64,000 nt of DNA from Hyphomicrobiales bacterium. Lineage in GTDB: Bacteria; Pseudomonadota; Alphaproteobacteria; Rhizobiales; Rhizobiaceae. The stretch is taken from contig UEIJ01000020.1 of the NCBI GenBank assembly GCA_900470195.1, positions 248,001 to 312,000 on the forward strand, read 5' to 3'. The position numbers and the translations under genes were made by a program. The notes under the pieces were generated by a model. It worked only from the letters and a program-made list of their open reading frames with translations. It did not search any database and had not been told where the DNA came from. Shown here piece after piece: positions 2,362 through 39,519 of this stretch. Position 1 is the stretch's first letter. Every line of letters starts with the position of its first letter.

Positions 2362-2388
2362 GGCAGAATTGACTTGTCACGGCCCTAA

Positions 2389-3413: not shown

Positions 3414-3429
3414 GTATTTCCGGCTTTGA

Positions 3430-3457
3430 GGCCCCGCCGTTTGTTTCCGGCGGTGCC
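3430..3457. terminator. Hairpin between convergent AraC and receptor genes
   Basis: CCGCCG (3434-3439) pairs with CGGCGG (3448-3453) over an 8-nt T-rich loop, extended past one mismatch by GGC/GCC. It fills the short gap between two converging genes and so could end transcription from both sides. There is no long T-run, so termination may be weak. Confidence 0.4.
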
Positions 3458-3464
3458 GCTCAAC

Positions 3465-5588: not shown

Positions 5589-5891
5589 GGTCAGGTCCGA
5601 TATGCAGTTTGCGGCAATCGCTTTCGGCGACGGTTTTCAAGTCGTGGGACGTCGACCAGCCATACGGTCAACGATCAGGCACACCCGATCATCGAGACTG
5701 TAAGTAAACTGAAATTGTCCCCGGATCGCCACTAACTTGAGAAGCATTGTCCAGTATTGTAGAAAACCGCTTTTTTGTAGGAAGTCACGGTTAATTCGCA
5801 ACAGCTTTATCGGGACGCATGCTTCGGCCTTGACGCGCGGGGCTTAACTTGACAGTGAAAGGCCACTTTATATGCAAGGAGAATGCGCCGG
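5589..5891. promoter_or_regulatory. Divergent control region between receptor and siderophore ABC operon
   Basis: About 300 bp with no credible gene lie between two diverging iron-uptake units, so promoters for both must be here. TTGACA at 5849-5854 is a good -35 hexamer facing the ABC operon, but the only -10-like TATATG lies at a short spacing and overlaps the ribosome-binding site, so I do not assign a promoter. I looked for Irr-type (ICE) and RirA-like iron boxes and saw no convincing match. Confidence 0.45.
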
Positions 5892-9800: not shown

Positions 9801-9851
9801 CTGTCCGCGACAACGGCCTTTTGCAGCCTTTTCAATCCGCCGATTTCCTAG

Positions 9852-9879
9852 CGCCGCGATCTGGTGATCGCGGCGTTTT
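9852..9879 (+). terminator. Intrinsic terminator of the siderophore ABC operon
   Basis: A perfect 10-bp GC-rich stem, CGCCGCGATC / GATCGCGGCG, with a TGGT tetraloop, followed directly by TTTT. It lies 51 bp after the ATPase stop and before the biotin promoter, so it insulates the two operons. Confidence 0.85.
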
Positions 9880-9919
9880 CCGTTCTGCCGCGGGTATATC
9901 ACGCTTTTCCAACCTAAAA

Positions 9920-9929
9920 TTATCTATAA
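9920..9929. promoter_or_regulatory. BioR operator, upstream box
   Basis: TTATCTATAA matches the known BioR box (TTATMKATAA) of alphaproteobacteria. It lies just upstream of the proposed -35 of the biotin operon. BioR is a GntR-family repressor of biotin genes in Brucella and Agrobacterium; its gene is not in this window. Confidence 0.85.
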
Positions 9930-9938
9930 TAATTTAGC

Positions 9939-9966
9939 TTGAGTCACTCATGCTTATTCATTTAAT
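9939..9966 (+). promoter_or_regulatory. Likely promoter of the biotin operon
   Basis: TTGAGT and TTTAAT are separated by 16 bp and lie about 50 bp before bioB. The two BioR boxes flank this core, one upstream and one downstream of the expected start of transcription near 9973. A further inverted repeat, AATCTAT...ATAGATT (9964-9982), overlaps the -10 region and resembles half-sites of the same family. Confidence 0.5.
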
Positions 9967-9992
9967 CTATATTTCATAGATTCTTTCTATTT

Positions 9993-10002
9993 TTATAGAT
10001 AA
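9993..10002. promoter_or_regulatory. BioR operator, downstream box
   Basis: TTATAGATAA is the second BioR box and is the reverse complement-type partner of the upstream one, 64 bp away. It is between the proposed transcription start and the bioB ribosome-binding site (GGAG, 10006-10009). Paired boxes allow repression by two dimers or by looping. Confidence 0.85.
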
Positions 10003-10014
10003 AATGGAGAAAGC

Positions 10015-11022
10015 ATGCTGAAAACGGTCCAATCTGCCCCGGAAAACGGAGATAAGACAGAAACCAAACCAGTTGCCGCATGGACGCTCGCAAGCGCTCG
10101 GCTGCTCTATGATCTTCCGTTCAATGATCTTCTTTTCGAGGCACAGAGTGTTCATCGCGCCAATTTCGACCCGAACCGGGTTCAGCTCAGCAAATTGCTC
10201 AACATCAAGACAGGCGGCTGCCCGGAAGATTGCGGCTATTGCAGCCAGTCGGCGCATCATGCGTCCGGGCTGACGGCTTCCAAACTGATGAGCCTTGATA
10301 CAGTCCTTGCAGAAGCGCAGAAAGCCAAGGAAAGTGGCGCGACGCGCTATTGCATGGGCGCGGCCTGGCGCAGCCCGAAGCCGCGTGACGAACCAGCCAT
10401 CGTGGAAATGGTCAGGCAGGTGAAGGCGCTCGGGCTGGAAACCTGCATGACGCTCGGCATGCTGAGCCCCGCTCAGGCGCAGAGCTTTGCGGAAGCAGGC
10501 CTCGATTATTACAACCACAATATCGATACGTCAGAGCGTTTCTATCCGCAGGTCATCACGACACGCAGTTTCGACGAACGGCTGGAAACACTCACCCATG
10601 TGCGGAGCGCCGGGATCAAGGTTTGCAGCGGCGGCATTCTCGGCCTTGGAGAAACCGAAGACGACCGCATCGACATGCTGGTGACGCTGGCAAATCTGCC
10701 CACGCCGCCGGAGAGCGTGCCGATAAACATGCTGATCCCTATGCCCGGATCGCGGCTGGAAAAAGCCTCGCCCGTCGATCCCATCGCCTTTGTCCGCATC
10801 ATCGCACTTGCCCGACTGATGATGCCGCAATCGCATGTGCGTCTGACGGCTGGGCGCAATTCCATGAGCGATGAAATGCAGGCGCTCTGCTTTTTCGCCG
10901 GCGCAAACTCGATCTTTATCGGCGACACGCTCTTGACCGCCGCCAATCCGGGCGAAGACCGCGACACGAGCCTCTTGCGGCGGCTTGGCCTGACGGCGGA
11001 CACACTGGACGATCGCGCATGA
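10015..11022 (+). CDS. bioB: Biotin synthase BioB (radical SAM)
   Basis: A 335-residue radical-SAM enzyme that inserts sulfur into dethiobiotin, the last step of biotin synthesis. The [4Fe-4S] cysteines are visible as C69-x3-C73-x2-C76 within [13 protein letters not shown]. The YNHNIDTS and RLTAGR segments of the auxiliary-cluster and substrate region are also present. It is first in the bioBFDAZ operon, with GGAG five bases before the ATG. The stop overlaps the bioF start by 4 nt. Expression should fall when biotin is plentiful, through the two BioR boxes upstream. Confidence 0.98.
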
Positions 11023-12164
11023 ATACCGATCCGGTGGCCCGCTATGCCGCGAGCTTGAAAAATCTTGAGCGGCGCGGGCATCTGCGCGCGCTTTCGGATC
11101 ATCGCGGCGCGGACTTCACCTCAAACGATTATCTGGGGCTTGCCGTCTCGCCGTCGATCCGCAGAGCATTGATTGCGGAATTGGAAAAGGGACTTGCCAG
11201 CGGGGCTGGCGGCTCAAGGCTGTTGCGTGGCAACCACCCGGAACATGAGCTTCTGGAAGCTGAGGCCGCCGCCTTTTTTCGCGCGCCGTCCATGCTTTAT
11301 TTCGGCAACGGTTATGCGGCCAATCTTGCGGTTCTCTCGACCCTGCCGCAACGCGGCGATCTGATTGCCTATGACGCGCTGACCCATGCCAGCGCGCATG
11401 AAGGCATGCGGGCCGGAAAGGCCGAGGCCGTTTCCGTTGCACACAATGATGCGGATGCGTTCGACAGAGCCATCCGCGTCTGGCGCGAACGGGGAGGAAG
11501 CGGCACTCCGTGGATTGTGGTGGAGAGCCTTTATTCGATGGATGGCGACTGCGCGCCTCTGTCCGATCTGATGGAAATCGCCGACCGTCACGATGGCTTC
11601 CTCTTCATTGACGAAGCCCATGCCACAGGCGTGCACGGACCGGGCGGACGCGGTTTTGCGGCGGGGCTGGAAGGCAGGCAGAATGTGATTGTCCTCCATA
11701 CCTGCGGCAAGGCCATGGGAAGCGCGGGCGGGCTGGTCGCGGCAGATCCGGTAATGCGCGATTTCCTCATCAACCGCGCGCGTCCTTTCATCTATTCGAC
11801 CGCGCCCTCACCGTTGCAGGTTTCCGCAACACGGCTTGCGCTGAAAACCATGGCGGCAGAAGAGCACCGTCGGCAGGAATTGCACCGGCTTATCGCTCGC
11901 GCCAATGCGCGTTTCGCACATCTCTTCGGCAAACCCGGTAGCGGCACGCAGATATTGCCGCTGATTATCGGCAATGCCGACCGCACCTTGCGCATTGCGC
12001 ATCGCATGCAGGCCGAGGGCCTCGACATACGCGCCATCCGCCCTCCGACAGTGCCCGCCGGAACAGCGCGTTTGCGCATCACCATCACGCTTAACGTCGA
12101 TGAACCCACGATAACGCGCATGTTCGAGCGCCTTGCCGAAATCATGGCAGAGGAAATGTTATGA
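11019..12164 (+). CDS. bioF: 8-amino-7-oxononanoate synthase BioF
   Basis: A 381-residue PLP enzyme of the alpha-oxoamine synthase family. It condenses pimeloyl-ACP (or -CoA) with L-alanine to give 8-amino-7-oxononanoate. Visible motifs are [19 protein letters not shown] (residues 62-80), D198 and H201 in [12 protein letters not shown], and the PLP lysine K231 in [12 protein letters not shown]. Both ends overlap the neighbouring genes by 4 nt, so the operon is translationally coupled. The pimeloyl donor is probably made by BioZ, encoded last in the same operon. Confidence 0.97.
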
Positions 12165-12799
12165 AACAGACTTTCGTCGTTACCGGCACCGATACAGGTA
12201 TCGGCAAAACCGTCTTTTCCGCAGCCCTCACGGATGCGCTCAATGCCTGTTACTGGAAGCCGGTGCAATCGGGGCTGGATGAGGCGACCGACAGCGAAAC
12301 CGTGTTGCGGCTCGCAGGACTTTCGCAGCGGCGGATCATTCCTGAAACCTGGCGCCTGAAAACACCGGCCTCGCCACATCTTGCGGCGCAGATCGACGGA
12401 GTGGAGATCGATGCAGATGCGCTCGACATCCCATCGGTCGATGCGCCTCTGGTGATCGAAGGCGCAGGCGGATTGCATGTGCCGCTGACGCGCCGCACGA
12501 CATTCATCAATGTTTTTGCGCGTTGGCAAAAGCCGGTCATTCTATGTTCAAGAACCGGCCTCGGGACCATCAATCATAGCTTGCTTTCGCTCGAGGCATT
12601 GAGCCGCCGCAATATCCCCGTGCTAGGCATCGCCTTTATCGGTGACCCACAACCCGACACCGAGCAGATTGTTCCGGAACTCAGCGGCGTGCGCAGGCTG
12701 GGCCGGTTGCCGCATCTTGCAAAGCTCGATCAGGACACACTCCGCCGCGCTTTCCGCGAACATTTCGACATGAATCTATTTAACGAGGCTTCCGAATGA
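12161..12799 (+). CDS. bioD: Dethiobiotin synthetase BioD
   Basis: A 212-residue cytoplasmic ATP-dependent carboxylase that closes the ureido ring, turning 7,8-diaminononanoate, CO2 and ATP into dethiobiotin. The P-loop is at the N-terminus (GTDTGIGKTVFSAAL), followed by YWKPVQSG and VIEGAGGLHVPL, all BioD signatures. GAGG sits seven bases before the ATG, which overlaps the bioF stop. Length is normal for the family. Confidence 0.97.
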   Translation: MKQTFVVTGTDTGIGKTVFSAALTDALNACYWKPVQSGLDEATDSETVLRLAGLSQRRIIPETWRLKTPASPHLAAQIDGVEIDADALDIPSVDAPLVIEGAGGLHVPLTRRTTFINVFARWQKPVILCSRTGLGTINHSLLSLEALSRRNIPVLGIAFIGDPQPDTEQIVPELSGVRRLGRLPHLAKLDQDTLRRAFREHFDMNLFNEASE

Positions 12800-14070
12800 G
12801 CGGCTATTCGTCGCCTGTCTGGCACCCATTCACGCAACACGCTACAGAACCGGCTTTTCGCCGGATCGTCAAAACTGACGGCGCCTATCTGCTTGATGAA
12901 ACCAGCCGCTCCGTGCTGGACGCCATATCGTCATGGTGGGTAATTACCCACGGGCATCGTCACCAGAAGATCATGACGGCAATCCGTGATGCATCGGAAC
13001 TGTTCGACCAGATCATATTTGCCGAGTTTACCCACGAACCGGCGGAGAAGCTGGCGCGAGAATTGGTCAAACTCGCCCCGCAGGGCCTCGCCCACGTCTT
13101 CTATTCCGACAGCGGCTCCACCGCGGTCGAGGTCGCGATCAAGATGGCGCTCGGTTTCTATCACAACAGAAACGAACCGCGCTCGCGCATCGTGGTGATG
13201 GAGCATAGCTATCATGGCGATACGATTGGAACCATGTCCACGGGTGCGCGCGGCGTTTTCAACGCGGCTTACGAACCCTTGTTATTTCAGGTCGACACCA
13301 TTCCGTTTCCGTCGGCCGGACGGGAGCAGGAAACGCTCGACGCGCTGGAAAAGTTCTGTCGCAGCGGCGAGGTTGCCGCCCTGTTGATAGAGCCGTTGGT
13401 TCTGGGAGCGGGCGGAATGAAAATCTATTCCGCGCATCTTCTGGCTGAATTCCAGCGGATTACACAACGCTATGGAACGCTGCTGATTGCCGATGAAGTG
13501 ATGACCGGATGGGGACGCACCGGCACCATGTTTGCCTGCGAGCAGGCGTCCATCACACCGGATATCCTGTGCCTTTCCAAAGGCATTACCGGCGGCGCGC
13601 TTCCGCTGGCCGCGACGCTCAGCACGATCGAAATCTTTGAGGCGCATTTTTCGACGGATCGAAGACGCACCTTCTTCCATTCCAGCTCCTACACGGCCAA
13701 TCCTATTGCCTGTGCCGCCGCGTGCGCCAATATTGAAGTCTGGCAGACAGAACCCGTTGCGGACCGCATCAAGGCACTCGGCCAATTGCATTCGGAGAGG
13801 CTTGCACGTTTTCGCAACGATCCGCGTTTCACCAATCTGCGCCAGCAAGGCACCATTGCGGCCCTCGACCTCGCCGTCGAAGAGACCGGATACCTTTCCG
13901 ATGCGGGACCGAAACTGAAAGCCTTCTTCCGTGAAGCAGGCGTGCTTCTGCGTCCGCTTGGCGATGTGATCTATCTGATGCCGCCCTATTGCGCGACGCC
14001 TGCCGATCTGGACCTGGCCTATGATGCGATCGATGCGGCAGCCGACATTATCGGGAAGGCAGCGCGATGA
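12796..14070 (+). CDS. bioA: Adenosylmethionine-8-amino-7-oxononanoate aminotransferase BioA
   Basis: A 424-residue class III aminotransferase that uses SAM as amino donor to make 7,8-diaminononanoate. [10 protein letters not shown] near residue 46, [12 protein letters not shown] near 105, the PLP-contacting D233 in [13 protein letters not shown] and the PLP lysine K262 in LSKGITGG are all present. The WW pair is typical of the SAM-binding pocket of BioA. Start and stop overlap bioD and bioZ by 4 nt each. Confidence 0.97.
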
Positions 14071-26085: not shown

Positions 26086-29000
26086 CTAGAACTTCCCGAT
26101 GACATTCAGGAAAACGCCACGATCGTTGAGGGTCAGATCACGCAGATCGTCGGAGAATGCGCCAAAGTTATAGCCCGCTCCAACCTTGAAGTTCTCGCCG
26201 ACGTGACGGTAAATGGCCAGCAATGCACCGTAATCGGTGGTCTTTGCCTCCGGCATGTGCAGCACCCTGCCTTCAAGCAGCGCGTCCCAGTTCTTCACCA
26301 CATGAAGATCCGCCCGGACAATGCCGAGATGGGCCGATGACGTATACCAGTCCGAAAACTCCTTGCGGTCATCGTCCATCTGCCGCTCTCGGACCTGGCC
26401 GTAGCGCATGCCGTATTTACCGCCAACCGACAGCCACGGCATCAGATCATATGTGAAGTCTGCCGAAAGGATATGGCTGCGCTGGGCCGGACCATATTCG
26501 TCGCCGGTGATGGCGCTCACCTGGTCCTCGCCGGGCAGATCGTAGACCCACGCATATTTGAACAGCGCATTCAGCCGGTCATTGTCTATCGGGCGATAGG
26601 CATAGCCGATAGACGCATCGACGTAATTGCCGTCACGGAACGAACTGTCGCCGGCAGAATCCGACACCACCGCATCGACATTGACGAGCAGCCGCCAATC
26701 CTCGCTCGTCTTCCAGGAAAGTCCTGTCGCGAACAGGTAAGTGTTGCGGTCACGACTGCCATCGTCGGATTCCTCGAAGCGGGCCTCGCCGCGTATGCGT
26801 GCATTGATGCCCTGCTCCTCATCCTTGTAGCCGACCGAGAGCGAAACCGCCTTGCGGTCGAAATTCGAGCGCTCCGCACCGGTATCGGGATCGACCGTAT
26901 CGTCCTCCACCGAACCCGCCTCAAACCCGCCATCGACAGTCCAGACCTTATCCGGCGTATAGATAACACCATAAGTCTTGGTGAGCGACATGCGGCGGCC
27001 GAAGAGATCGTAGTTGTTCTCCGCATAGGTCGACAGCGTGTCGTCGAGCTTGCGTCGCATACCCAGAACGAAAGTACCCTTGTCTACACCGTCGAGATCG
27101 TAGCTGCGGTCCAGATCGAAAGCGCGGTCCGGATCCAGCCGATAACCGAAATAGTAGTTGTCGGACGCCGTCGGCGAATAGGTGATGGCCGCCAGTCCGC
27201 CCAATCCGCTGTTGCCGTAAGATATCTCCCCTTCGAGACCAACCTTTTCGGTCAGTTGATATTTCGTTCCGACACCAAGCCGGTCGTTGCGGCGAACGTC
27301 CCCGTCCCGCGACAGGGTGCCCTGGCCGAAGACGTAATATTTGTGATCGGCATCGGGCGCATAGTCGAGCCGGACGCCTGCGTCGAGCCTGTCACCATCA
27401 TAGCCGCTCTTGCCGGAATAGACTGCGATTGGCGATCGAAGTTCCGTATAAGAAACACCGAATGACGCCTTCCAGTATTCGTCGAACTGGTGACTGACGG
27501 TTGCCTCGCCCTTGCGCTTGGTGCGTCCGCCGGTTTCTCGCTGGTAAAACTCGTCGTAATCGCGCCCTTCCTTGTAATCGTCATAGGTGAGCTTGAGATT
27601 ATCGTCCTTCGTCAGCTTGATATCCGCATACGCACCCCAGATGCGTTCGTCCACCGTCACCTGCTCGGCAAGAGTGGAAAAGCCAGCCTGCTTTTCTCCG
27701 TAGTAGCCGCCGACCGTTCCCTTGAGGCCATCCTTGACGATGTCCTCCAGATCGAGCTGACCCTTTGTTCGCCAGGCCATCGCCGAACGATCACGCGTGC
27801 CGGTGGTCGCGACGTCACTCAGCGTAAGCCCGCCATCGGTCGAACGCGACAGACCAAAACCCGGCCCCTTGGAGTGGGAGATTTCGGCTTCAAGGAAGGT
27901 CTTTTCCGAGTGACGAATAGTGATGTCGGCTCCCACAGCCTGCTGGTTGGCCTCTCCGGTCGTCTCATTCATGCCGGTGACACCGACACGCACCTTTTCG
28001 TCGAACCAGTGCTGCGCGCGACCGCCATAGACATAGCCATCCACTTCGCCAATCGTGGGCGTGAATTCGTATTGCGCGATGAGATAAACCCGATTGCCTC
28101 CAAGCGCGCCCTCGCGGATCGCTCCGCCGGTGCCCGTCGAAGACGATAGCGGACGCTTGAGGATGACGACACCCTGTAGGTAGTCGAGCGTATAATCTTC
28201 TCCGTAGATAAGTGTCCGGCGTTCCTTGACCTCGCCGGTTACCTGGTCGCGGACCTCCACGGTCAGTGTTTCGGAGCCCGTGGTGATGTCCTGCCGCTTC
28301 AGGAAGTAGGCCGAACCGCCAGTCCCGAGAAACTCGTCGCGCTGGGGCAGCGTATCCGGCTGGGCTGCATAGACATTCACTTCGGTTTTGCGCTCGCCGA
28401 AAGATGTCACTTCCTCGGAATTATAGACGGCGCTGGCACCATAAAGCCCCCGTTCCGAACGCATGAACTCCGTACCCTTGATGGAAGCTTTGTAATTGCC
28501 CCACATCACGTGGCTCGGTCCGCGATCCAGCCGCACATAGAATTTTCCGTTGGTCGGCGCATCTTCCAGAATGGTCGAGTCGTCGCCATAGACCGGATAG
28601 TAGGCATCGGGGTCGATACGCCGCAACAGACTACGCGGATCACGGTCATCGAGGCCGCGGAACATATCCTTGATCTCACCTTCGCGACTGTCCGCCGCTG
28701 CGGTAAGAAGATATTTACCCTTGATCTTGCCCTTCACGTAAAAGGCGAGCCGACCCTTGGTGTAGACCTCATCATATTCGCCGGGGCGCACATCTTCGAT
28801 CCCGTCATCGCCCATGCGCTTGCCGACGGTAAGATCAGCGAGACCGACATAGAACCAGTCGTTATCCGGGATATTGATCTGGCGGCTGAAGTCGAGGGCG
28901 CTTCCCTTTTCCTGACCGAGCACAGCCACATCCACGTCATGTTCGCCCGGCGGCAGGATGCGCTGCATGACAAAGGACTGGTTCTTGTCCAGCGGGACAA

Positions 29001-29832
29001 CCCCGTCCAGCGCCTTTACCTGATATCCTTCCGGCACGTTACGCCCATAGACGGTCACGGCACCACCAACCACGTCGATATTGCGTGTGCCGGTATTGTC
29101 CTCGCCCATGCCCGGTGCAGGTGCTTCCGTAAGCTTGGTGTCTTCCTTCGGCAATTCCTTGTCAGTGCGGGCTATGGAGCGCGGCAGGGTCTCGTCGTAG
29201 CGACCATCTTTGTCATAAACGCGCAGAATATATTTAAACCGCGTCTTTTCGTTTTCCGTCTCCGGCATCACCCATTCCGCCTCGCCATTGATGGCGACCG
29301 GGATGACCGCTGCAGGTTCTTCCTTCAGGGTCTTGTCCGTCTCGAAGACACGGATTTCCGAGCGGGAGATGAAAGCCGGATAGTTGGCCGTTGCGAGAAA
29401 ACGCACCGCTTCACCGGCCCTGTAGGTTCGGCGGACCGGATTGGTCGAGATATTAAGCACGGGCCGCGCATCCAGCCCATCAAACTTGACCTGAATGTCG
29501 ACTGCAGACAGCCCGACATCGGTTCTGCGCTGTCTGTCTGTCTTGCCGCTGGCAGGCTTCGGCTTGCCGGATTCTGCCAGCGTTTCACCATCGACGCTGA
29601 TCGAGAACGGAATATCGCCTTCCTCGTCAGGGCTTTCGGTTTCCGTATTCGGTGCAATCCCCGTCTTCGCGACTGCGCTGTTGTCCAGCACCTTGCCACG
29701 CAGACGATCTTCTGCCGAAGCGTCGAGCACAACCGCATTGGCTGCGGCCAGGGCACAGCCCGCCAGAAGCAGGCCGCGCTTGCGGCGCACGATATTCGCG
29801 AAGGTGGATGAAGTCAGGAAAATCGTTTTCAT
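26086..29832 (-). CDS. Large outer-membrane beta-barrel protein, partner of giant repeat protein
   Basis: A 1,248-residue exported protein. Residues 1-40 are a long signal peptide (cleavage DASA-ED). Residues ~80-330 look like periplasmic Ig-like domains (RRTYRAGEAVRFLATANYPAFISRS; VTVYGRNVPEGYQVKALDG). From about 340 on there is a long series of amphipathic strands with many Tyr/Gly/Asp turns, ending VFLNVIGKF with a C-terminal Phe, as for BAM-assembled barrels. A segment YGEDYTLDYLQGVVILKRPL precedes the barrel. Automatic annotation would probably say TonB-dependent receptor, but I see no TonB box or plug. Its ATG overlaps the giant gene's stop by 4 nt; a 20-codon upstream extension is rejected. 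It is likely the outer-membrane partner of that protein. Confidence 0.7.
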   Translation of the reverse strand: MKTIFLTSSTFANIVRRKRGLLLAGCALAAANAVVLDASAEDRLRGKVLDNSAVAKTGIAPNTETESPDEEGDIPFSISVDGETLAESGKPKPASGKTDRQRRTDVGLSAVDIQVKFDGLDARPVLNISTNPVRRTYRAGEAVRFLATANYPAFISRSEIRVFETDKTLKEEPAAVIPVAINGEAEWVMPETENEKTRFKYILRVYDKDGRYDETLPRSIARTDKELPKEDTKLTEAPAPGMGEDNTGTRNIDVVGGAVTVYGRNVPEGYQVKALDGVVPLDKNQSFVMQRILPPGEHDVDVAVLGQEKGSALDFSRQINIPDNDWFYVGLADLTVGKRMGDDGIEDVRPGEYDEVYTKGRLAFYVKGKIKGKYLLTAAADSREGEIKDMFRGLDDRDPRSLLRRIDPDAYYPVYGDDSTILEDAPTNGKFYVRLDRGPSHVMWGNYKASIKGTEFMRSERGLYGASAVYNSEEVTSFGERKTEVNVYAAQPDTLPQRDEFLGTGGSAYFLKRQDITTGSETLTVEVRDQVTGEVKERRTLIYGEDYTLDYLQGVVILKRPLSSSTGTGGAIREGALGGNRVYLIAQYEFTPTIGEVDGYVYGGRAQHWFDEKVRVGVTGMNETTGEANQQAVGADITIRHSEKTFLEAEISHSKGPGFGLSRSTDGGLTLSDVATTGTRDRSAMAWRTKGQLDLEDIVKDGLKGTVGGYYGEKQAGFSTLAEQVTVDERIWGAYADIKLTKDDNLKLTYDDYKEGRDYDEFYQRETGGRTKRKGEATVSHQFDEYWKASFGVSYTELRSPIAVYSGKSGYDGDRLDAGVRLDYAPDADHKYYVFGQGTLSRDGDVRRNDRLGVGTKYQLTEKVGLEGEISYGNSGLGGLAAITYSPTASDNYYFGYRLDPDRAFDLDRSYDLDGVDKGTFVLGMRRKLDDTLSTYAENNYDLFGRRMSLTKTYGVIYTPDKVWTVDGGFEAGSVEDDTVDPDTGAERSNFDRKAVSLSVGYKDEEQGINARIRGEARFEESDDGSRDRNTYLFATGLSWKTSEDWRLLVNVDAVVSDSAGDSSFRDGNYVDASIGYAYRPIDNDRLNALFKYAWVYDLPGEDQVSAITGDEYGPAQRSHILSADFTYDLMPWLSVGGKYGMRYGQVRERQMDDDRKEFSDWYTSSAHLGIVRADLHVVKNWDALLEGRVLHMPEAKTTDYGALLAIYRHVGENFKVGAGYNFGAFSDDLRDLTLNDRGVFLNVIGKF

Positions 29833-32800
29833 TGACCTGCCTCCACACGGGTCTCGATGGTCAGTTCGTATCTGCCCCTGACCGACTTCCATCTTTGGGT
29901 AATGTCCTCCTCGATGGCTTTGATACGGCGGCGGGCAAGCTCGGCATCCGGCGCCGCGCCATAGCCGATGCGTAGCGTGGACGGTTCGCTTTCAAGCGCC
30001 TCGATCAGGCGATCGATGCCCTTCTGCCATTTTGGTTTCAGGGTTGTTGTACCGGGCTCGAACGCGGCGTCGGTCAGATCGAGACGCACGACACGCCCGA
30101 TCGAAGCGCCGAAATTAAGCTTCGACATCTTGCCCGCGGTGAGCCTGATGACGCGCGGGTTCTCCGTCGTCAGCCGGTAGCCGGCAGGCAAGGTTCGCGT
30201 ATCGAGCTTCATGATGAAGTTCGAGCCGATCCGGCTGTCCGGCAGGTCGGCACAGGCAACATGGAAGCGCCCGTGTTTGTCCGTCGTCACCAACGATCCG
30301 CGTACCGTCGCGATACGCACGCCGGGCAGTCCCGGTTCGCCTTCGTCCTGATAGCCGTTGCGGTTGAGGTCATCGAACACCTTGCCAACGATATCGCCGC
30401 AATCGAACACAGGCTCGATGGCGATCTCGATGTCAGCCCGCGCTTCCGGCGCGAGCGGATTGCCGTCGAGACCGGTCACCGTCGCCTTGTTGGTGTGCTT
30501 GCCGGGTCCTGCGGAACTCAGCGCCAGCATCTGCAATCTGATCACCACCTCAGCATTGGGTCCAAGCGCCACATTGTCGAAGCGCACCCGCTGGCCATTG
30601 ATGATCGGTATCGCCGCCACTCCATCCACGGTCGCTGAACCGTCGACATAGCGGAAGCCGGACGGCATGATGTCCGTCACGCTGACATAACCGGCATTTC
30701 CGCTCGAATGGTTGGTCACCCTGATCGTGAACGGCGCTTTTTCGCCGCGCTTGATCTGGCGCAGACCGGCCTGCTTGATGATGGTGATATCGGCAGGCTT
30801 CGCAGGCGGAATAGTAACGTTGGACGTCGAGGTGGTTGAAGGCACCGAACCGCCGCCGTCTACAGTGCCCTGCACGGTCGCCGAGTTCTTTATGCCGTCC
30901 AATACACCGGCGGCGCTGTCGATATCCTCCTGCGTCAGCGCATAGGTCGCGTTGAAGACCTGCGAAGCATGGGGCTGCAAGGTTACGCTTTGAGGCGTAT
31001 AAGCTGACAGTTTTCCTGCCGCCGTCTTGCCATTGAAGGTCGGCCCGTCGTCCACTGGAGACACATCGGTAATGACCTGACCGCCAGTATTGGTGATCTT
31101 GAAGCTGTAGGTGATCGTGTCACCCAGGCTCGCATAACCGTTGTTGTCATTATCGTTGAACTTGCCGGTTTTCTCGATCTCAAGCCGCGACAGTTCCACC
31201 GGCGGCACCACAACCGTATCTGGTGGGGTCTCGATAGGCTCTCCCCCACCGGGAGGTGTGCCGGTACCGGTCGCCGTATTGGAAACGGAACCGGCCTCGA
31301 TATCGGCCTGCGTCGGCTGATAGACCGCCTTGAAGACCGCTTCCGCACCTGGAGCAAGCGACGCGACAGACGCAGGCTCGATTGCGACGCCAGCCTTCGC
31401 CAGCAGCGGATCGTTGACGGCGACGTTCGATATGGTCACCGCACCGGTGTTCTTCACGACAAAGGTGTAGGTGATCGATTCACCCGGATCTATGAGGCTG
31501 TTGCCGTTCCGGTCATCCAACTGGGCCTGCTTGTCGATGGTCATGCTAGCCGTTTCATCGGGCGGCACGACGACCGTATCCGGCGGGCTGGTGATGAGTT
31601 CACCAGTCGGAGGCGTGCCGGTGCCGACGGCGGTATTCTTCACCTTGCCCGCATCGATTTCAGCCTGTGTCGGCTGGTAGGTTGCCGTGAAGGTTACGCT
31701 CGCGCCGGGCGCGAGTGTCTGCGGGCCAGGTGTCACCGCAATACCGGCATCAGCCAGCAGCGGATCGTTCACAGTGACATTGGTCATCGTGACATTGCCC
31801 GTATTGCGGACGAGGAACGAATAGCTGATCGTTTCGCCCGCATCGAGGAGGCCATCGCCGTCCTTGTCATTGAGCGTACCAGTCTTCTTGATAGTCAGAC
31901 CGGCAGTCTGATCGGGAGGCACGATCACCGTATCCGGCGGGCTCGTGATGAGCCCCCCGGTCGGCGGCGTGCCGGTGCCGGTAGCTGTATTCTCCACCTT
32001 GCCAGCATCGATATCGGCCTGCGTCGGCTCATAAGTCGCGGTAAAGGTCGCGGTTCCTCCGGGCGCAAGCGTCTGGGGTCCCGGCGTTACCACAATGCCG
32101 GCATTGGTCAGCAGCGGATCGTTCACAGTGACGTTGGTCAGCGTGACATTGCCCGTATTGCGGGCGAGGAACGAGTAGCTGATCGTTTCGCCCGGATCGA
32201 GGAGGCCATCGCCGTCCTTGTCGTTGAGCGTACCGGTCTTCTTGATAGTCAGACCGGCAGTCTGATCAGGAGGCACGATCACCGTGTCCGGCGGGCTGGT
32301 TATGGGTTCGCCCGTCGGCGGCGTACCGGTACTGGTAGCTGTATTGACGACCTTGCCCGCATCAATGTCATCCTGAACTGCCGTATAGGTCGCAGTGAAG
32401 GTCGCTTCCGCACCGGGAGCAAGCGTGGCCACCGAAGCCGGACTTATCGCCACACCATACTTGGTCAACATCGGGTCACTGACGCTGACATTCGTCAACG
32501 TCACCTTGCCGACATTCTTCGCCACGAAAGTATAGGTGATTTCCTCCCCTGCATCGACGAGGTTGTCTCCATCGAGGTCATTGAGCTGACCGGTCTTGCG
32601 GATTTCAAGACCCGGAGCCTGGTCGGGCGGCACAATTACCTTATCGGGTGGGCTGGTGATGAGCTCACCCGTCGGCGGCGTACCCTTGCCGGTTGCGCTG
32701 TTCTCGACCTTGCCGCCATCGACATCCGCCTGAACCACCGTATAGACAGCGGTGAAGGTTGCTTCTGCGCCCGGAGCGAGCGTCTGAACCGAGGCCGGGC

Positions 32801-35800
32801 TGACCTGCACGCCATTCCGTGCCAGCATCGGATCATCGATGCCGACATTCGTCATCGTCACCTTGCCGGTGTTCTTGACGATAAATGTATAAGTGATCTG
32901 CTCGCCCACATCGGCAACAGCGTTGCCGTTAAGGTCATTGAGCTCACCCTGCTTTTTGATGGTCAGGCCAGACGTAACATCGGCGGTGATGATAACCGTG
33001 TCCGGAGCGCTATTCACTGAACCGTTGGACGGCGTGATGCCGGTTGCGGTGGCGGTATTTTCGACCTTGCCCGCGTCGATGTCAGCCTGTGTCGGAGTAT
33101 AGGAGCCATGGAACGTGAATGTACCGCGCGGTGCAAGCGTCTGCGGGGCTTCCGTGACCTGTACCAGCGGATCGTTGACCGTTACATTCCTCAGCGTAAC
33201 GGAGCCTGTATTCCTGACAAGGAAGCTGTAGCTGATCGTCTCGCCAAGATCGAGAAGACCATTGCCGTTGCTGTCGTTGAGTGCGCCTTCCTTATCGATT
33301 GTCAGTCCCGGCACCAAATCCGGCGGCACGATCTCGGTATCAGGTTCACTCTTCACGAGCGGACCGGCAGGCGGAGTGCCGACGGCGACCGCCGTGTTCA
33401 CAATCTGGCCCGCGTCGATTTCTTCCTGGCTTGGCGTATAGCTGGCATGGAAAGTGAAGGTTCCGCCGGGTGCGAGCGTCTGCGGACCTTCAACGACCTT
33501 GACCTTCGGATCTTCGACGGTGACATCCTTCAGCGTGACATTGCCGGTATTCTTTACGAGGAACGTATAGGAAATCGTCTCGCCCGGATCTACGAGACCG
33601 TCGCCATCCTGATCCTGAAGCGTACCAACCTTGTCGATTGTAAGCCCGGCAGTGCGGTCCGGCGGCACAATCGCCGTGTCAGGCGTGCTTTCGACTTCGG
33701 CACCATCCGGATTGTTGCCCTTGGCGGTTGCCGTGTTGGACACCATGCCTGCATCAATGGCGTCCTGCGGCGGCTCGTAGGTGGCGGTAAACGTCGTAGT
33801 GCCGCCGGGCACCAGAGTCTGTGGCCCGGGCGATACGGAAACGCCTGCGCCGGCGAGCATCGCATCGTTCACCGTGACGTTGGTCAGGGTCACGTTGCCC
33901 GTATTGCGTACGACGAAACTATAGGTAATCGTCTCACCCAAATCGATGAGGTTGTCACCATCGAGATCGTTCAGCGTGCCGGTTTTCTTGATGGCCAATC
34001 CCGCAGTGCGATCAGGCGGCACAATGGCCGTATCGGGATTGCTCTCGACCGCATCGCCTGTCGGGGTGACACCTGTGGCGGTCGCAGTGTTCTCCACCTG
34101 ACCCGCATCGATTTCCGGCGTCGAAGCCGTATAGGGAAGAGCCGTGAAGGTGAAGCTGGCACCAGGCGCGAGCGTCTGCGGCCCTTCGATTACCGTCACT
34201 TTCGAGTCGTTGACGGTAACATTTGAGAGCGTCACCGCACCGGTGTTGGTTACGAGGAAGGAATAGCTGATCGTCTCATCCGGATCGATGAGGCCATCGC
34301 CGTCCTTGTCATTGAGTGTACCGGTCTTCTCGATCGTCAGTCCCGCCGTCTGAGCAGGGGGAACAATCTCGGTATCAGGGTCACTTTCGGTTGGCGTGCC
34401 GGTCGGCGTCTTGGCGGTTGCTGTAGCCGTATTCGTCACCTTGCCGGAGTCGATTTCTTCCTGGCTTGGAGTGTAAGTGGCTGAGAACGTGACCGAACCG
34501 TTCGGGGCGAGCGTCTGCGGCCCCGGCGTTACGGTTACACCCGGTTTTTGAAGCATCGGGTCATTGACGGTCACGTCCGTTAGAGTGACCGCGCCGCTAT
34601 TGCGGACGAGGAAACTGTAGGTGATCGACTCGCCCGGATCGACAAGACCATTGCCGTTCGTATCGTTGAGCGTTCCCTTCTTGTCGATCGTCAGTCCCGG
34701 TGTCTGGTCAGACGGTACGATTTCCGTATCGGGAGTACTCTCATAAGACGTACCGGACGGCGTCGTGCCTGTCGCAGTCGCCGTGTTCGTCACCCGACCG
34801 GCGTCGATCTTGTCCTGCGTCGCAACATAGGTCGCAGTGAAGGTCACCTCGTCGCCCGGCGCCAGCGTCTGGGGACCGGGGCTCACGGAAATGCCTTCGG
34901 CGGCAAGCAGGGAATCTTTTACCGTCACATCGGTCAGCGTGACATTGCCCGTATTCCTGACGATGAAGCTGTAGACAATCTCCTCACCTTCATCGACGAA
35001 CCCGTCACTGTCCTTATCCTGAAGCACGCCGGACTTGTCGATCGTGAGGCGCGGCGTCTGGTCCGGCGGTACGGTAACCGTATCGGGGTCGCTTACCAAC
35101 GGGTCGCCAGAAGGCGGTGTACCGATTGCGGTGGCCGTGTTCACCACATTGCCGTTGTTGATGTCGGCCTGGCTTGGCTCATAAGTGCCATGGAACGTGA
35201 ACCTGCCGCCTGGAGCCAGCGTCTGCGGTGCTTCCTCGACCGTCACCAAAGGATCATCAACCGTCACGCCGGTTAGCGTTACATTGCCCGTATTGGTGAC
35301 GACGAACGCATAGGTGATCGTTTCGCCCGGATCAATCAGACCGTCGCCGTCCAGATCGTTCAGCGTGCCAATCTTATCGATGGTGAGCCCGGGCGTCCGG
35401 TCCGGGGGCACGTTCGCCGTGTCGGGATCGCTATCGATAGGATCGCCCAGGGGTGGCGTGCCGGTGGCAGTCGCAGTATTCGTCACGACCCCGGCATCGA
35501 TCTCGGCCTGCTTCGGCGTGTAGGTAGCGGTGAAGACCACCGAACCTCCCGGCTGAATGGTCTGAGGTCCCGGTGTGACCGAAATGCCGGCAGCATCAAG
35601 CAGTGTGTCCTTTACTGTCACATCTGTCAGTGGAACATCGCCGGTGTTTTCAACGCGGAAGGAATAGCTGATCGTTTCGCCCGGATCGATCAGGCCGTCG
35701 CCGTCCGTATCGTTCAGCGTCCCGGTCTTTTTAAGGGTCAGTTTCGGGTTCTGGTCGTCATTGACAATGGTGCAGATCGCGTTCTCGCCGTTAACAAGCG

Positions 35801-38276
35801 CGATCTCGCCATTGGTCAGAGGCTGAGCAGCGTTGCCGTCAACCGAGCAGCTATAGGCGCTGGCCAGATAACCGGGCTTATTATCCTCGGCCAACACATA
35901 GGTGCCGCCTGGAACAGGTGCATTGGTGATCGCTGCATCGCCCATGAACCCCTGGATCGAATTGGTGAGTGGCGCCTTACCCGTCGCGCGCAGCGTGAAT
36001 TCGGTCGGTACCGCAGTGCCCTTCTGGTCGTTGATCACCTGCTTGCGCAGTGTAAGCTTCGGCTGACAGATGGCTTCGGAGGTCACCTGAGCCATGAATG
36101 CCTGGGCCCCGGGGCCGGACTTTATGTGGACAATGACGGTGTTGAGACCAACTCGCCAGCTGCCTCTCATCGAGCCGGTGGCGGCTCCTGTGTCGGTGAA
36201 GCCCCAATAATAGTAGGGGTCGCTACCTCCGTAATTGGAGCGGATATTCTGAGCTACGCCATTCACCCATACCTGATATACGGAATTGTCCGCATAAAAA
36301 TTCATCTTCAGGTCGAGACTCGCTGGATCGACGGCCGAATCGAGATTGAACTGGTATCGGTAGAAGATGTCGTACGAGAGTTGCGTGTTAGGATGCGCGG
36401 CTGTCGAACTGTTGGAAATCCAGCTGGCATTGCCAAATGGTGACTTCACATATGAGGCTGGAGGGTTGGTGACAATCGTTGCTCCACCCCAAGCCAGATT
36501 GGAGGGGGGCGCGCCTGTCACATTGGTCGTGGTTAATGCGATTTGCCAATAATTATCGTAACCGCTCGCCTTCTGCCCGCCTGCGCCGTTATAAGCCGTA
36601 TTGAAGAATGCGCCCGACGTTGCGCAGGACACTGTATCCGGGGCACTTGGCACATAAGGCGGCGTCGGCGTCGATACCGAACAGGTGGTGCAACCCGACG
36701 GCACATCGCCGCCGCTGATGGAATTGCGTATCTGCGACACACCGAGCGGAATTGGAGCCGCGACCGTCAGATCGATTTCTACTTCTGCTTTACCGCCCAC
36801 CGGCACCTCCGGCACGGTCAACAGCACGGCAGAAGCACCGGAGACAGGGCTGGTAAATCCCTTTGCGCCCGAAACACGTGTCATCGTGGCGCCGTTTGGA
36901 ATATTTTCGATGAAATCGAAGTCCTTGAACGCTCCGCCGCCGGTATGAGTAACGGTTACCTTATAGGTAAGAACCTCACCGGGTTCGGCGAGATTGTTGG
37001 TGGTAATGCTTTCGCGGATCAGTTCTTTTTTTACGGTTGCGGCAGGCGGTGTGAAGGTATCCCTGTCCGTAGCAGAGTTATTGGACGTGTTCGGGTCGGG
37101 TGTCCCGGTCGGCGGCGTCACGGTAGCGGTGTTGACGAGGTCACCCGTAAACCCGGCTGGTATGCTCATGGCAAGCGTATAGGTTACCGACGCGCCGGCA
37201 GGCAGATTTGCTGTAGTATTAATCGGGCCTGTACCGCTTGCTGCGCCGCAAACAGCTCCTCCGGTTGCCCCGCCGCACCTCCAACTCGCATTGGTGATGC
37301 CGGAAGGGAGCGGATCGCTGACCCGCGCACCCATTGCGCCAAAGGGACCGGCATTGGAAACCACTATGGTGTAGTTGACTACCTGACCCGCCGAATAGGA
37401 CGTTGCGCCATCACTCTTGGTAATCTTCAGGTCTGCAGGAAATTCCAACGGAGTGGTCGGGCACTTGGCACCATCATTATTACCCGATCCCTGCAGGCTC
37501 GAGATCAGCGTCGCTTTACCGGTCACCGGATCGAACTGATAGAAACCGCCGCTGTTGTTGCTGCCGAAAATACCGTTGGTGGCGCCAAACATACCGCCAA
37601 AGCTGCCAGCCACTCCCGTTGAACCGTGCGCAATAACGGCGCCAGTGGACGGATTGATCTCATACAGCGGCCCATTATCGGGGGCAGCACCCCAGAGTCG
37701 ATTGTTATACCATGCCAGATCGTTGAGGTTGACGGATTGGGTCAGCGCAACTGTTGTGGATGTCCGCGTATTGACATTGATCCCGTAAAGGTTCGCGCCA
37801 CTAGCAACCCAGAACGTACCTCCGGGCCCGAACTCGCCGGCAACACTGCCGGGAATGCCAGACACTGTGCCCAGATTGACGACACCACCGCCCGCACCGA
37901 TACGCAGCAGGGAAGTGCCGCTCAATCCATACATGTATTTGTCGACAGGATTCAGCGCGACAGCGTTATACGTCAGTGTCGACGGCGGTCCGACAGGGCT
38001 TACGATGAAAGGATTTTGTGTGGCGTCAAAACGATAGAGCGCTGTGGGAGCGTCCTGCGCCAGATACATTCTGGAATCACATGCGAAAGGCGTCTGTGTC
38101 TGCGCAACCGCGCTGGCTGTCGGCAGAGCCGTCGCTCCAACAAGCGCCAGCGAAACCAGTTTCGTGACATTGCCTACTGCGGCGCGGAACGAACTCTTGG
38201 AATGAAGTCGCGCGACGGGAGCGAAGCGACCCGACAAACGACGAGCGACACGACGCAGCATGGCAATCTGAAACAT
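29829..38276 (-). CDS. Giant exported protein with 14 DUF11/EF-hand-like repeats and OmpA-like end
   Basis: A 2,815-residue protein, the largest in the window. Residues 1-58 are an extended signal peptide (cleavage near ASAVA-QT). Residues ~60-270 form a propeller-like region (LYRFDATQNP, LYGINVNTRT, FYQFDPVTG). Two DUF11-like domains follow (~280-490), then a lectin-like stretch, then a prealbumin-like domain near 760-830. Residues ~840-2495 are 14 tandem ~118-residue repeats with the start KTGTLNDxDGDGLIDPGETI, whose DxDxDGxxDxxE spacing is that of an EF-hand calcium loop. The C-terminus has an SdrD_B/CNA_B-like domain (VFDDLNRNGYQDEGEPGLPGVRI) and, from ~2737, an OmpA-like segment (AFEPGTTTLKPKWQKGIDRLIEAL). 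GAGGGG precedes the ATG; an 11-codon extension is rejected. Probably a surface or periplasm-spanning adhesin; function unknown. Confidence 0.75.
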   Translation of the reverse strand: MFQIAMLRRVARRLSGRFAPVARLHSKSSFRAAVGNVTKLVSLALVGATALPTASAVAQTQTPFACDSRMYLAQDAPTALYRFDATQNPFIVSPVGPPSTLTYNAVALNPVDKYMYGLSGTSLLRIGAGGGVVNLGTVSGIPGSVAGEFGPGGTFWVASGANLYGINVNTRTSTTVALTQSVNLNDLAWYNNRLWGAAPDNGPLYEINPSTGAVIAHGSTGVAGSFGGMFGATNGIFGSNNSGGFYQFDPVTGKATLISSLQGSGNNDGAKCPTTPLEFPADLKITKSDGATSYSAGQVVNYTIVVSNAGPFGAMGARVSDPLPSGITNASWRCGGATGGAVCGAASGTGPINTTANLPAGASVTYTLAMSIPAGFTGDLVNTATVTPPTGTPDPNTSNNSATDRDTFTPPAATVKKELIRESITTNNLAEPGEVLTYKVTVTHTGGGAFKDFDFIENIPNGATMTRVSGAKGFTSPVSGASAVLLTVPEVPVGGKAEVEIDLTVAAPIPLGVSQIRNSISGGDVPSGCTTCSVSTPTPPYVPSAPDTVSCATSGAFFNTAYNGAGGQKASGYDNYWQIALTTTNVTGAPPSNLAWGGATIVTNPPASYVKSPFGNASWISNSSTAAHPNTQLSYDIFYRYQFNLDSAVDPASLDLKMNFYADNSVYQVWVNGVAQNIRSNYGGSDPYYYWGFTDTGAATGSMRGSWRVGLNTVIVHIKSGPGAQAFMAQVTSEAICQPKLTLRKQVINDQKGTAVPTEFTLRATGKAPLTNSIQGFMGDAAITNAPVPGGTYVLAEDNKPGYLASAYSCSVDGNAAQPLTNGEIALVNGENAICTIVNDDQNPKLTLKKTGTLNDTDGDGLIDPGETISYSFRVENTGDVPLTDVTVKDTLLDAAGISVTPGPQTIQPGGSVVFTATYTPKQAEIDAGVVTNTATATGTPPLGDPIDSDPDTANVPPDRTPGLTIDKIGTLNDLDGDGLIDPGETITYAFVVTNTGNVTLTGVTVDDPLVTVEEAPQTLAPGGRFTFHGTYEPSQADINNGNVVNTATAIGTPPSGDPLVSDPDTVTVPPDQTPRLTIDKSGVLQDKDSDGFVDEGEEIVYSFIVRNTGNVTLTDVTVKDSLLAAEGISVSPGPQTLAPGDEVTFTATYVATQDKIDAGRVTNTATATGTTPSGTSYESTPDTEIVPSDQTPGLTIDKKGTLNDTNGNGLVDPGESITYSFLVRNSGAVTLTDVTVNDPMLQKPGVTVTPGPQTLAPNGSVTFSATYTPSQEEIDSGKVTNTATATAKTPTGTPTESDPDTEIVPPAQTAGLTIEKTGTLNDKDGDGLIDPDETISYSFLVTNTGAVTLSNVTVNDSKVTVIEGPQTLAPGASFTFTALPYTASTPEIDAGQVENTATATGVTPTGDAVESNPDTAIVPPDRTAGLAIKKTGTLNDLDGDNLIDLGETITYSFVVRNTGNVTLTNVTVNDAMLAGAGVSVSPGPQTLVPGGTTTFTATYEPPQDAIDAGMVSNTATAKGNNPDGAEVESTPDTAIVPPDRTAGLTIDKVGTLQDQDGDGLVDPGETISYTFLVKNTGNVTLKDVTVEDPKVKVVEGPQTLAPGGTFTFHASYTPSQEEIDAGQIVNTAVAVGTPPAGPLVKSEPDTEIVPPDLVPGLTIDKEGALNDSNGNGLLDLGETISYSFLVRNTGSVTLRNVTVNDPLVQVTEAPQTLAPRGTFTFHGSYTPTQADIDAGKVENTATATGITPSNGSVNSAPDTVIITADVTSGLTIKKQGELNDLNGNAVADVGEQITYTFIVKNTGKVTMTNVGIDDPMLARNGVQVSPASVQTLAPGAEATFTAVYTVVQADVDGGKVENSATGKGTPPTGELITSPPDKVIVPPDQAPGLEIRKTGQLNDLDGDNLVDAGEEITYTFVAKNVGKVTLTNVSVSDPMLTKYGVAISPASVATLAPGAEATFTATYTAVQDDIDAGKVVNTATSTGTPPTGEPITSPPDTVIVPPDQTAGLTIKKTGTLNDKDGDGLLDPGETISYSFLARNTGNVTLTNVTVNDPLLTNAGIVVTPGPQTLAPGGTATFTATYEPTQADIDAGKVENTATGTGTPPTGGLITSPPDTVIVPPDQTAGLTIKKTGTLNDKDGDGLLDAGETISYSFLVRNTGNVTMTNVTVNDPLLADAGIAVTPGPQTLAPGASVTFTATYQPTQAEIDAGKVKNTAVGTGTPPTGELITSPPDTVVVPPDETASMTIDKQAQLDDRNGNSLIDPGESITYTFVVKNTGAVTISNVAVNDPLLAKAGVAIEPASVASLAPGAEAVFKAVYQPTQADIEAGSVSNTATGTGTPPGGGEPIETPPDTVVVPPVELSRLEIEKTGKFNDNDNNGYASLGDTITYSFKITNTGGQVITDVSPVDDGPTFNGKTAAGKLSAYTPQSVTLQPHASQVFNATYALTQEDIDSAAGVLDGIKNSATVQGTVDGGGSVPSTTSTSNVTIPPAKPADITIIKQAGLRQIKRGEKAPFTIRVTNHSSGNAGYVSVTDIMPSGFRYVDGSATVDGVAAIPIINGQRVRFDNVALGPNAEVVIRLQMLALSSAGPGKHTNKATVTGLDGNPLAPEARADIEIAIEPVFDCGDIVGKVFDDLNRNGYQDEGEPGLPGVRIATVRGSLVTTDKHGRFHVACADLPDSRIGSNFIMKLDTRTLPAGYRLTTENPRVIRLTAGKMSKLNFGASIGRVVRLDLTDAAFEPGTTTLKPKWQKGIDRLIEALESEPSTLRIGYGAAPDAELARRRIKAIEEDITQRWKSVRGRYELTIETRVEAGQ
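30790..35755 (-). repeat. Tandem repeat array, 14 units of about 355 bp, inside the giant gene
   Basis: Each unit encodes a DUF11-like domain. Between units runs a linker of the form TxTGTPPTGxxxxSxPDTVIVPPD. Units 11 and 12 are almost identical in DNA: the blocks beginning near 31790 and 32147 match over about 170 bp with only scattered changes. Unit 9 has a weakened calcium loop (DLNGNAVADVGE), and unit 14 is divergent (DNDNNGYASLGD). Such arrays change length readily by recombination. Confidence 0.85.
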
Positions 38277-38515: not shown

Positions 38516-39421
38516 TCATTTCCGGTTCCGGATATTGGAGGGCGTGACACCCTTCAGCTTTTTCATTGTCGCAGTCAAATGGCTCTGGCTGGAAAAACCG
38601 CTAACATACGCCACTTCAGCGATGGACATCTCGCTCTCGGCAAGGAGCCGCTCGGCATAAGCAAGCCTCAGACCCAAAAGATAACCGTAGGGCGCTTGCC
38701 CGAATGTCTGCGTAAAGCCGCTGATAAAGTGGCTAGGCGAAAGATCACAAATCGTGGCAAGGTCCGCCACGGTAAGCTTGCGCGAAACATTTTCCCGCAT
38801 GAAAGCCAGAACTTTCTTCGCATTATAAAGCGAAAGGCCGGTTCTCGGCTTCGCGCGGGCTTCGCCATCTTCATCACTCTGGAAAAGGTGGACAATCAGT
38901 CTTGTAACCAGTGCGTCTACTCGTGCGGGCTCGACCGCTTCCGGCGCAGCCAGCATCGCTTTCAATTGTCTCGCCATATCAAGAGCAACCACGTCAACAG
39001 CGGGCGACGCGACCGTCGTTTCAAGCTCCGTCGAATCCTGTTTCCGCAAGCAGTTCGGCTTGATTGCCAGAATTATGCTTTCCTTATCTGAAGCCCATTT
39101 CATAGACACCGGGCTGTTGGCTGCGCTTGTCAAAACGGCGCCTGCCTGCACTTCGGCCAGTGCTATCCGACGGCCACCGGATATGTATTCGAGGTCTCTT
39201 ACGGGAGTTAGAAATATTTCAACCAGATGAGCTCTTGCCACAAACGCAAGCGACCCCGAACGACAGACGCAGTGCGCGACTTCACCTCGGGCGGTAATCT
39301 GCCCTGACCGCAAGCTGCCTGGAGGGATATCGAAATGAAAGGTGCCTGCCTGTAGAATGTTTGAGCAAGCATGTGCCTGATCTTCACCGGCAATCACTTC
39401 TTGCCGAGCTTGAGCCGTCAT
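38516..39421 (-). CDS. AraC-family regulator upstream of the giant repeat-protein operon
   Basis: A 301-residue protein with a cupin-like N-terminal sensing region (FHFDIPPGSLRSGQITARGEVAHCVCRSGSLAFV) and a C-terminal AraC DNA-binding domain (KLTVADLATICDLSPSHFISGFTQTFGQAPYGYL, then SIAEVAYVSGFSSQSHLTATMKKLKGVTPSNIR). The ATG used follows a GGGG tract; a TTG eight codons earlier (39445) is possible. It reads in the same direction as the giant gene, whose start is 239 bp beyond its stop; the gap has no other gene. It may control that operon, but the gap is large enough for a separate promoter. Confidence 0.85.
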   Translation of the reverse strand: MTAQARQEVIAGEDQAHACSNILQAGTFHFDIPPGSLRSGQITARGEVAHCVCRSGSLAFVARAHLVEIFLTPVRDLEYISGGRRIALAEVQAGAVLTSAANSPVSMKWASDKESIILAIKPNCLRKQDSTELETTVASPAVDVVALDMARQLKAMLAAPEAVEPARVDALVTRLIVHLFQSDEDGEARAKPRTGLSLYNAKKVLAFMRENVSRKLTVADLATICDLSPSHFISGFTQTFGQAPYGYLLGLRLAYAERLLAESEMSIAEVAYVSGFSSQSHLTATMKKLKGVTPSNIRNRK

Positions 39422-39519
39422 TATATCTGTCAACCCCGCACACAAGACTCAGAAACCGAGCCTCCAAAATATTCATGATTCACCCCCCCGACCCAACAAT
39501 GTTCTAAAGTATTTCATAT

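Follow-up and report, generated by a model that had tools for sequence, protein, structure and literature searches.

Overlapping genes for a giant stalk protein and a large predicted outer-membrane β-barrel in a Rhizobiaceae bacterium

A 64,000-nucleotide stretch of contig UEIJ01000020.1 from a Hyphomicrobiales bacterium of the family Rhizobiaceae, referred to below as the window, contains two overlapping genes that encode a giant stalk protein of 2,815 residues (29829..38276) and a 1,248-residue barrel protein with a C-terminal phenylalanine (26086..29832). Coordinates without a locus name are window positions, and all features described lie on the reverse strand. We propose, with modest confidence, that the genes form a coupled cassette of a long stalk and its own barrel of about 36 strands. 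An SdrD_B-like domain near the C terminus of the giant protein, called here the dock (residues 2626-2728; 30093..30401), would seat at the barrel, the stalk would pass through it, and the tip would point outward. The first-pass annotation had paired the two genes and read the giant protein as a stalk or envelope-spanning adhesin held or exported by the barrel. The pairing extends to other genomes: a dock gene lies upstream of the barrel gene, on the same strand, in 49 of 65 barrel loci of the genome collection, and 50 further loci comprise 31 pairs, 16 single-protein fusions of dock and barrel, and 3 barrels alone. An anchored stalk remains the best reading.

Pairing and fusion of dock and barrel

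The 65 loci were found by peptide patterns of the window's barrel and lean toward its close relatives. In the window, the giant and barrel genes are coupled by the overlap ATGA (29829..29832), and in 44 of the 49 pairs the giant gene likewise ends in four nucleotides that overlap in frame as start and stop. The distance matrices of docks and barrels correlate with r = 0.89 over 43 pairs (reached in 0 of 2000 permutations), uncorrected for species history. Three genomes carry two different cassettes each, and dock and barrel share their nearest relative locus at all six of these loci; here, too, species history is uncorrected, and for two of the six this relative is an identical duplicate elsewhere on their own contig. 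Alignments A3 and A6 include 47 of the 49 loci with the C terminus of the giant protein, the identical copies L026 and L057 having been dropped. Alignment A1, composed of P0001 and 24 of the 120 listed proteins, matched 11 of 289 genomes, and the wider alignment A4 matched 60 of 398.

Strains with a pair of their own include Sinorhizobium meliloti 4H41 (L019), and Devosia and Phyllobacterium carry one as well. Some loci have unusual arrangements. At locus L023 of Chelativorans multitrophicus (1-13762), two tandem giant genes, each with a dock, precede one barrel gene, and the two stalks perhaps share the barrel. A 91-kb contig of Pseudorhizobium tarimense (L012, L026, L017 and L057) bears two different cassettes, each as two identical, oppositely oriented copies, which reflect either a genuine inverted duplication or an error of assembly. 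The cassette of locus L059, from a record titled Bacillus subtilis SK6B4, is near-identical to that of Pseudochrobactrum (dock distance 0.02), and the record is probably misnamed or contaminated.

The 50 further loci were assembled from 40 regions picked from profile-match rows and from 10 of 25 plasmid records with a match. They span alpha-, beta- and gammaproteobacteria and cyanobacteria, and are not independent, since some share a genome or genus; six of them (L092, L127, L141, L143, L151 and L161) are broken or truncated where a contig stops. Two of the fusions are annotated as single genes (Acinetobacter UDM39744.1 and Pacificitalea WP_097374567.1), a further fusion, L139, is from Rhizobiales, and a pair with a short dock protein is located on two cyanobacterial plasmids (open frames of 545 and 566 residues). 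In view of the natural fusions, the two-gene form resembles a single chain that has been split and that is composed of a passenger, the dock, an optional OmpA domain, Ig-like (immunoglobulin-like) domains and the barrel. The initial statement that the system is not a type V autotransporter, as the giant protein has no barrel, is correct for the genome of the window and does not extend to the 16 loci in which dock and barrel are one protein.

Canonical OmpA domains occupy various positions in these loci. Among the 31 pairs, OmpA is located at the N terminus of the barrel protein in six (three of them with three copies), at the C terminus of the giant protein in six (12 pairs thus bear it on either partner), in a separate downstream gene in six, and is absent from 13. 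Four of the fusions contain it between dock and barrel and one before the dock; the other 11 lack it, one of which, from Acinetobacter, has OmpA in the next gene. Both profiles were custom-built, that of OmpA from six segments and that of the dock from its own hits, so that a miss by them is weak. Of 10 proteins scanned with Pfam, five contain PF00691 above its cut-off, at the expected places. Since OmpA domains bind peptidoglycan, the segment from dock to barrel probably faces the periplasm.

Two plasmid loci have further genes around the cassette. In the Acinetobacter plasmid locus L086 (6156-18521), several consecutive DUF11/NEW3 genes are joined by the gene for the dock-barrel fusion, a gene for OmpA and one more of the DUF11 type, and the system there may have more parts. 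On the 737-kb plasmid of Eleftheria terrae (L085, 20266-29128), the annotation places a cluster of type II secretion or pilus-like genes (GspE/PulE, F protein, prepilins, secretin) close to the cassette.

Several observations weigh against the proposed cassette. Four of the 16 genome-collection loci without a dock have less than 0.6 kb of upstream DNA, but ten are Nitratireductor barrels (L028, L029, L030, L031, L032, L035, L045, L047, L050 and L056) with no dock in about 4-10 kb upstream, and neither the remaining two (L041 and L052) nor the three lone barrels of the further loci (L131, L159 and L160) have a dock gene beside the barrel, all as seen at the locus only. The misses of the OmpA profile in 13 pairs and 11 fusions indicate that a peptidoglycan anchor is not universal. 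The distance correlation carries no correction for species history. The confidence of the barrel model is moderate, and poor for residues 788-873, and the closure of the barrel is presumptive. Finally, the export of the giant protein through the barrel and its exposure at the surface are steps that we infer.

The giant protein and its stalk

The giant protein begins with a hydrophobic stretch, which is followed by a DUF6923 domain (residues 71-274; 37455..38066; Pfam E = 3.6e-46), the predicted N-terminal tip. Some relatives bear CshA-type names. Next come a DUF11 domain (residues 282-403; 37068..37433), a stretch without assignment, a SpaA_2 domain (residues 740-837; 35766..36059; Pfam E = 7.4e-18), 14 DUF7507 (CLIPPER_2) repeats of 113-126 residues each (residues 846 to about 2490; 30807..35741), a DUF11-like domain, the dock, and a tail of 87 residues (2729-2815; 29832..30092). 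Open frames, Pfam and AlphaFold2 agree with the earlier description of a 2,815-residue protein with 14 repeats whose gene overlaps by four nucleotides that of a 1,248-residue protein with Ig-like domains and a barrel. Up to E = 1, Pfam matched no sorting domain in the giant protein, whether of the RTX, autotransporter, YadA or another type.

The dock is the most conserved part of the giant proteins. It is located at the extreme C terminus in 117 of 119 listed homologs, and 86-89 residues follow it in 48 of the 49 pairs. Its features are those of the SdrD B-type fold; it scores 27.9 bits against PF17210, for which the curated cut-off is 29.7 and fused relatives reach 36.5. The tail is predicted to form a β-α-β-α-β fold, which is degenerate OmpA-like at most: Pfam gave no match of PF00691 to it, a profile search of the PDB with the tail did not find OmpA, and OmpA was not listed in fold searches, which covered mostly the dock. 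Of the SdrD_B-like and OmpA-like C-terminal segments described initially, the former is retained and the latter is reduced to at most a degenerate OmpA-like fold. The key module is accordingly moved from the OmpA-like end to the dock, which is conserved and elsewhere fused to the barrel.

All 14 DUF7507 repeats have a lysine at position 5, an aspartate at position 45, an asparagine at positions 83-100, and a DxDxD-type loop shortly past the lysine. The loop follows the strict pattern in 12 repeats, and deviates at the first residue in the remaining two. Such tandem Ig-like stalk domains are a feature of fibrillar adhesins of the CLIPPER-stalk type. The accessible text of PMC12617251 reports the crystal structure of a DUF11 domain in which an isopeptide bond is formed within the molecule, the domain being part of a putative fibrillar adhesin of Gram-negative origin, and gives the residues Lys72/Asp112/Asn152 for a DUF7507 domain; it renames the families DUF11 and DUF7507 as CLIPPER and CLIPPER_2. 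DUF11 is also handled as a stalk domain in the accessible part of PMC9210967. Based on the lysine-aspartate-asparagine triads and the published DUF11 structure, the repeats of the giant protein are predicted to carry intramolecular isopeptide cross-links, and their loops alone predict calcium binding. Text matches to "DUF11" in the retrieved portions of Brucella papers were only to DUF1176, DUF1192 and DUF1849.

Giant proteins reach 6,076 residues (record length, Loktanella), and several relatives have 27-29 repeats. The periplasm is narrower than such stalks. The exit of the stalk through the barrel is the simplest topology, because the N-terminal side of the barrel protein would be periplasmic and the stalk is too long for the periplasm. 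The lengths and the naming of relatives as CshA-type fibrillar adhesins suit a surface stalk. Alternatively, the giant protein could stay in the periplasm as an envelope spacer tying the barrel to peptidoglycan. The OmpA domains of relatives, beside dock and barrel, are in line with such a spacer, and the surface exposure of the giant protein is itself deduced; however, the 14 repeats of the window, the 27-29 of relatives and giant proteins of about 4,000-6,000 residues exceed the width of the periplasm, and the CshA-type adhesin names also argue against a spacer, which we consider improbable.

We hypothesize that the giant and barrel proteins enter the periplasm by Sec, as their N termini suggest, and that the β-barrel assembly machinery inserts the barrel, to which the C-terminal phenylalanine points. 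The dock, together with a true OmpA domain beside it in many relatives, would keep the C-terminal end periplasmic, consistent with the positions of OmpA in the fusions. The repeats would exit and fold on the outside, where they would take up calcium and become cross-linked by isopeptide bonds, as the triads and the published DUF11 structure suggest, and the variable N-terminal domains may serve as an adhesive tip. The system would thus work like a split, C-terminally docked autotransporter. It is also conceivable, though rather unlikely, that the barrel is an outer-membrane anchor only, at which the giant protein docks after reaching the surface by another route. Pairing and fusions indicate association and not transport, and the OmpA domains and the dock resemble holding parts. 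Nevertheless, Pfam detected no other secretion signal in the giant protein up to E = 1, and a barrel of about 36 strands far exceeds the need of an anchor.

The barrel protein and known systems

The barrel protein matched no family over the cut-off in Pfam or NCBIfam, and NCBIfam searches with 11 barrels returned nothing relevant. Its residues 100-1248 were modeled by AlphaFold2 from an alignment of 119 rows (A2), in which the window fragment is joined by 118 listed relatives, all of the 120 except P0041 and P0094. Secondary structure in the model delimits two Ig-like β domains (residues 112-223, 29164..29499; residues 247-321, 28870..29094) ahead of a predicted β-barrel (residues 327-1246; 26095..28854; predicted local distance difference test 71.2, predicted template modeling score 0.69). 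The modeled barrel contains, by count, 36 strands of at least eight residues (model residues 228-1147), not counting the inserted domain (about 384-460) and shorter strands; since residues 788-873 were predicted poorly, 34-38 is a fair range. Several alignments to FadL and porins include both model residue 1149 and residues near 322-330, in line with a single closed barrel in the model.

The β domain inserted in the barrel (residues 483-559; 28156..28386), delimited by the model and by motif conservation, is plug-like by position. Its pattern GTGGSxYFL...GSExVxVExRD...L..G.DYxIDY.QG is recognizable from Rhizobiales to cyanobacteria, and the motif DYxxDYxxG is conserved as far as cyanobacteria. 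Pfam found nothing consistent in the inserted domains of 18 members. Sequence searches of the PDB with the giant and barrel proteins gave no matches, and profile searches with the tail, barrel and inserted domain gave no meaningful relative. The best match of the inserted domain, AdpA (E = 0.003 over 32 positions), was judged to be chance, and a SprA-like motif was not confirmed in this domain.

The name TonB-dependent receptor is borne by 41 of the 120 listed barrel relatives. The barrel could accordingly be a nutrient receptor fed by the giant protein as a surface binding protein, and profile similarity to TonB-receptor barrels is high (96.9%). Yet neither the plug PF07715 nor PF00593 was matched in the barrel protein by Pfam up to E = 1, whereas both were matched in a genuine TonB-dependent receptor with plug and barrel in the same window (3465-5588), which served as the positive control. 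A PF00593 search of the genome listed five places, and the barrel locus is not among them. We consider the nutrient receptor scarcely credible. The earlier warning that such labels mislead is borne out, and the plug domain that would have spoken for them was not detected.

The best VIA fold matches are the ushers FimD and PapC, which also have a small inserted β domain. The barrel might thus be related to the ushers of chaperone-usher pili and carry an inserted plug, its substrate being covalently linked Ig-like domains in place of pilus subunits, but this is very improbable, as the likeness is at the level of the fold only and the sequence match does not rise above control barrels. The hhalign probabilities of 92.6% and 84.5% for ushers are not specific, given 96.9% for TonB receptors and 64.6% for LptD; with the close-family profile, the values are 3.7% for the usher, 88.5% for the TonB receptor and 11.7% for LptD. 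The usher family PF00577 has no match at the barrel up to E = 1, and its matches in the genome are on contig C43.

Two-partner secretion (type Vb) resembles the window pair in that one operon encodes an outer-membrane barrel together with a large partner that is secreted. The window pair differs in that its conserved docking end is C-terminal, and no POTRA domain in the barrel protein or TPS domain in the giant protein was matched by Pfam up to E = 1. The barrel is also predicted to be about twice as large as TpsB, which has 16 strands. Type Va autotransporters and intimin-type inverse autotransporters unite passenger and barrel in one chain, as do the 16 fusions, and intimin has a periplasmic peptidoglycan-binding domain, like the OmpA-bearing relatives. 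In contrast, the window encodes two polypeptides and a barrel of about 36 strands from another, unnamed family, and the giant protein ends in dock and tail, with no Pfam match to PF03797.

SprA of type IX secretion, the largest outer-membrane barrel according to the accessible text of a 2020 review (PMC7463736), has 36 strands, about as many as are predicted for the window's barrel, and was listed by Foldseek at E = 2.1e-6 and weaker. It differs in structure (TM-score 0.15-0.18); Pfam found no type IX secretion tail in the giant protein, and no SprA-type Pfam or NCBIfam model was listed up to E = 1. The top Foldseek matches were to Deinococcus SlpA of the S-layer deinoxanthin-binding complex, also a large outer-membrane barrel, with a TM-score of about 0.2 and a root-mean-square deviation of 13-14 Å. 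The CLIPPER-stalk adhesin B9T28_05395 of Acinetobacter silvestris resembles the giant protein in its long isopeptide-type Ig stalk and variable N terminus (PMC12617251). It has an OmpA-like anchoring domain, whereas the tail of the window's giant is not recognizably OmpA, and the accessible part of that account describes neither a barrel partner nor a dock. The most prevalent anchors of Proteobacteria in the available text of a survey (PMC8286594) are of the YadA, autotransporter and LapG types.

The nearest named relatives of the barrel are Brucella records of the Ochrobactrum group with 94% identity, and the host probably belongs to that group. The barrel gene is sporadic in the genus: it is present in 5 of 35 same-genus genomes examined, including that of the window, and two of the five have a shortened or split barrel frame. 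Decayed copies are found in B. grignonensis (L051), with a short giant remnant and the barrel in two frames, and in B. daejeonensis (L052), where the barrel lacks its first ~200 residues and there is no giant gene.

Regulator, novelty and significance

An AraC-family gene (38516..39445; Pfam HTH_18 and HTH_AraC) is located just upstream of the cassette and likely regulates it. Of the 29 pairs whose flanks are visible on either side, 14 have an AraC homolog no more than 1.5 kb away; over all 49 pairs the number is 18. The 14 homologs sit directly upstream or just downstream, and two of them are partial or weak (L003 and L038). Locus L001, outside the 14, has an 82% AraC homolog some 2 kb upstream of the open frame taken as its giant gene.

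Fibrillar adhesins with a DUF11 stalk and an OmpA-like end have been published, as seen in the accessible text of PMC12617251. No description of the barrel, its pairing with the dock, or the fusions was found in the literature searched, which covers only a minority of subscription journals and no bioRxiv preprints. We tentatively suggest that the cassette is an export-and-anchor system new to the literature: a SprA-sized barrel with about 36 strands in one chain, dedicated to one giant protein docked by its C-terminal SdrD_B-like domain. The system, split or fused and with a traveling OmpA domain, would extend from cyanobacteria to Rhizobiales, and would in effect be a C-terminally docked counterpart of two-partner secretion, with a pore maybe wide enough for folded Ig-like domains.

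Gram-negative bacteria have many giant proteins of the DUF11 type, for which we know of no common exporter or anchor. If the proposal is true, a dedicated barrel would answer how one class of giants gets out and stays attached, and a second single-chain barrel of near 36 strands would stand beside SprA. The natural fusions render the idea directly testable, and the misleading label of TonB-dependent receptor would be corrected. Because dozens of close barrel relatives bear nutrient-receptor labels, though the barrel of the window shows no plug, an overlooked route of displaying surface fibers may be widespread in bacteria.
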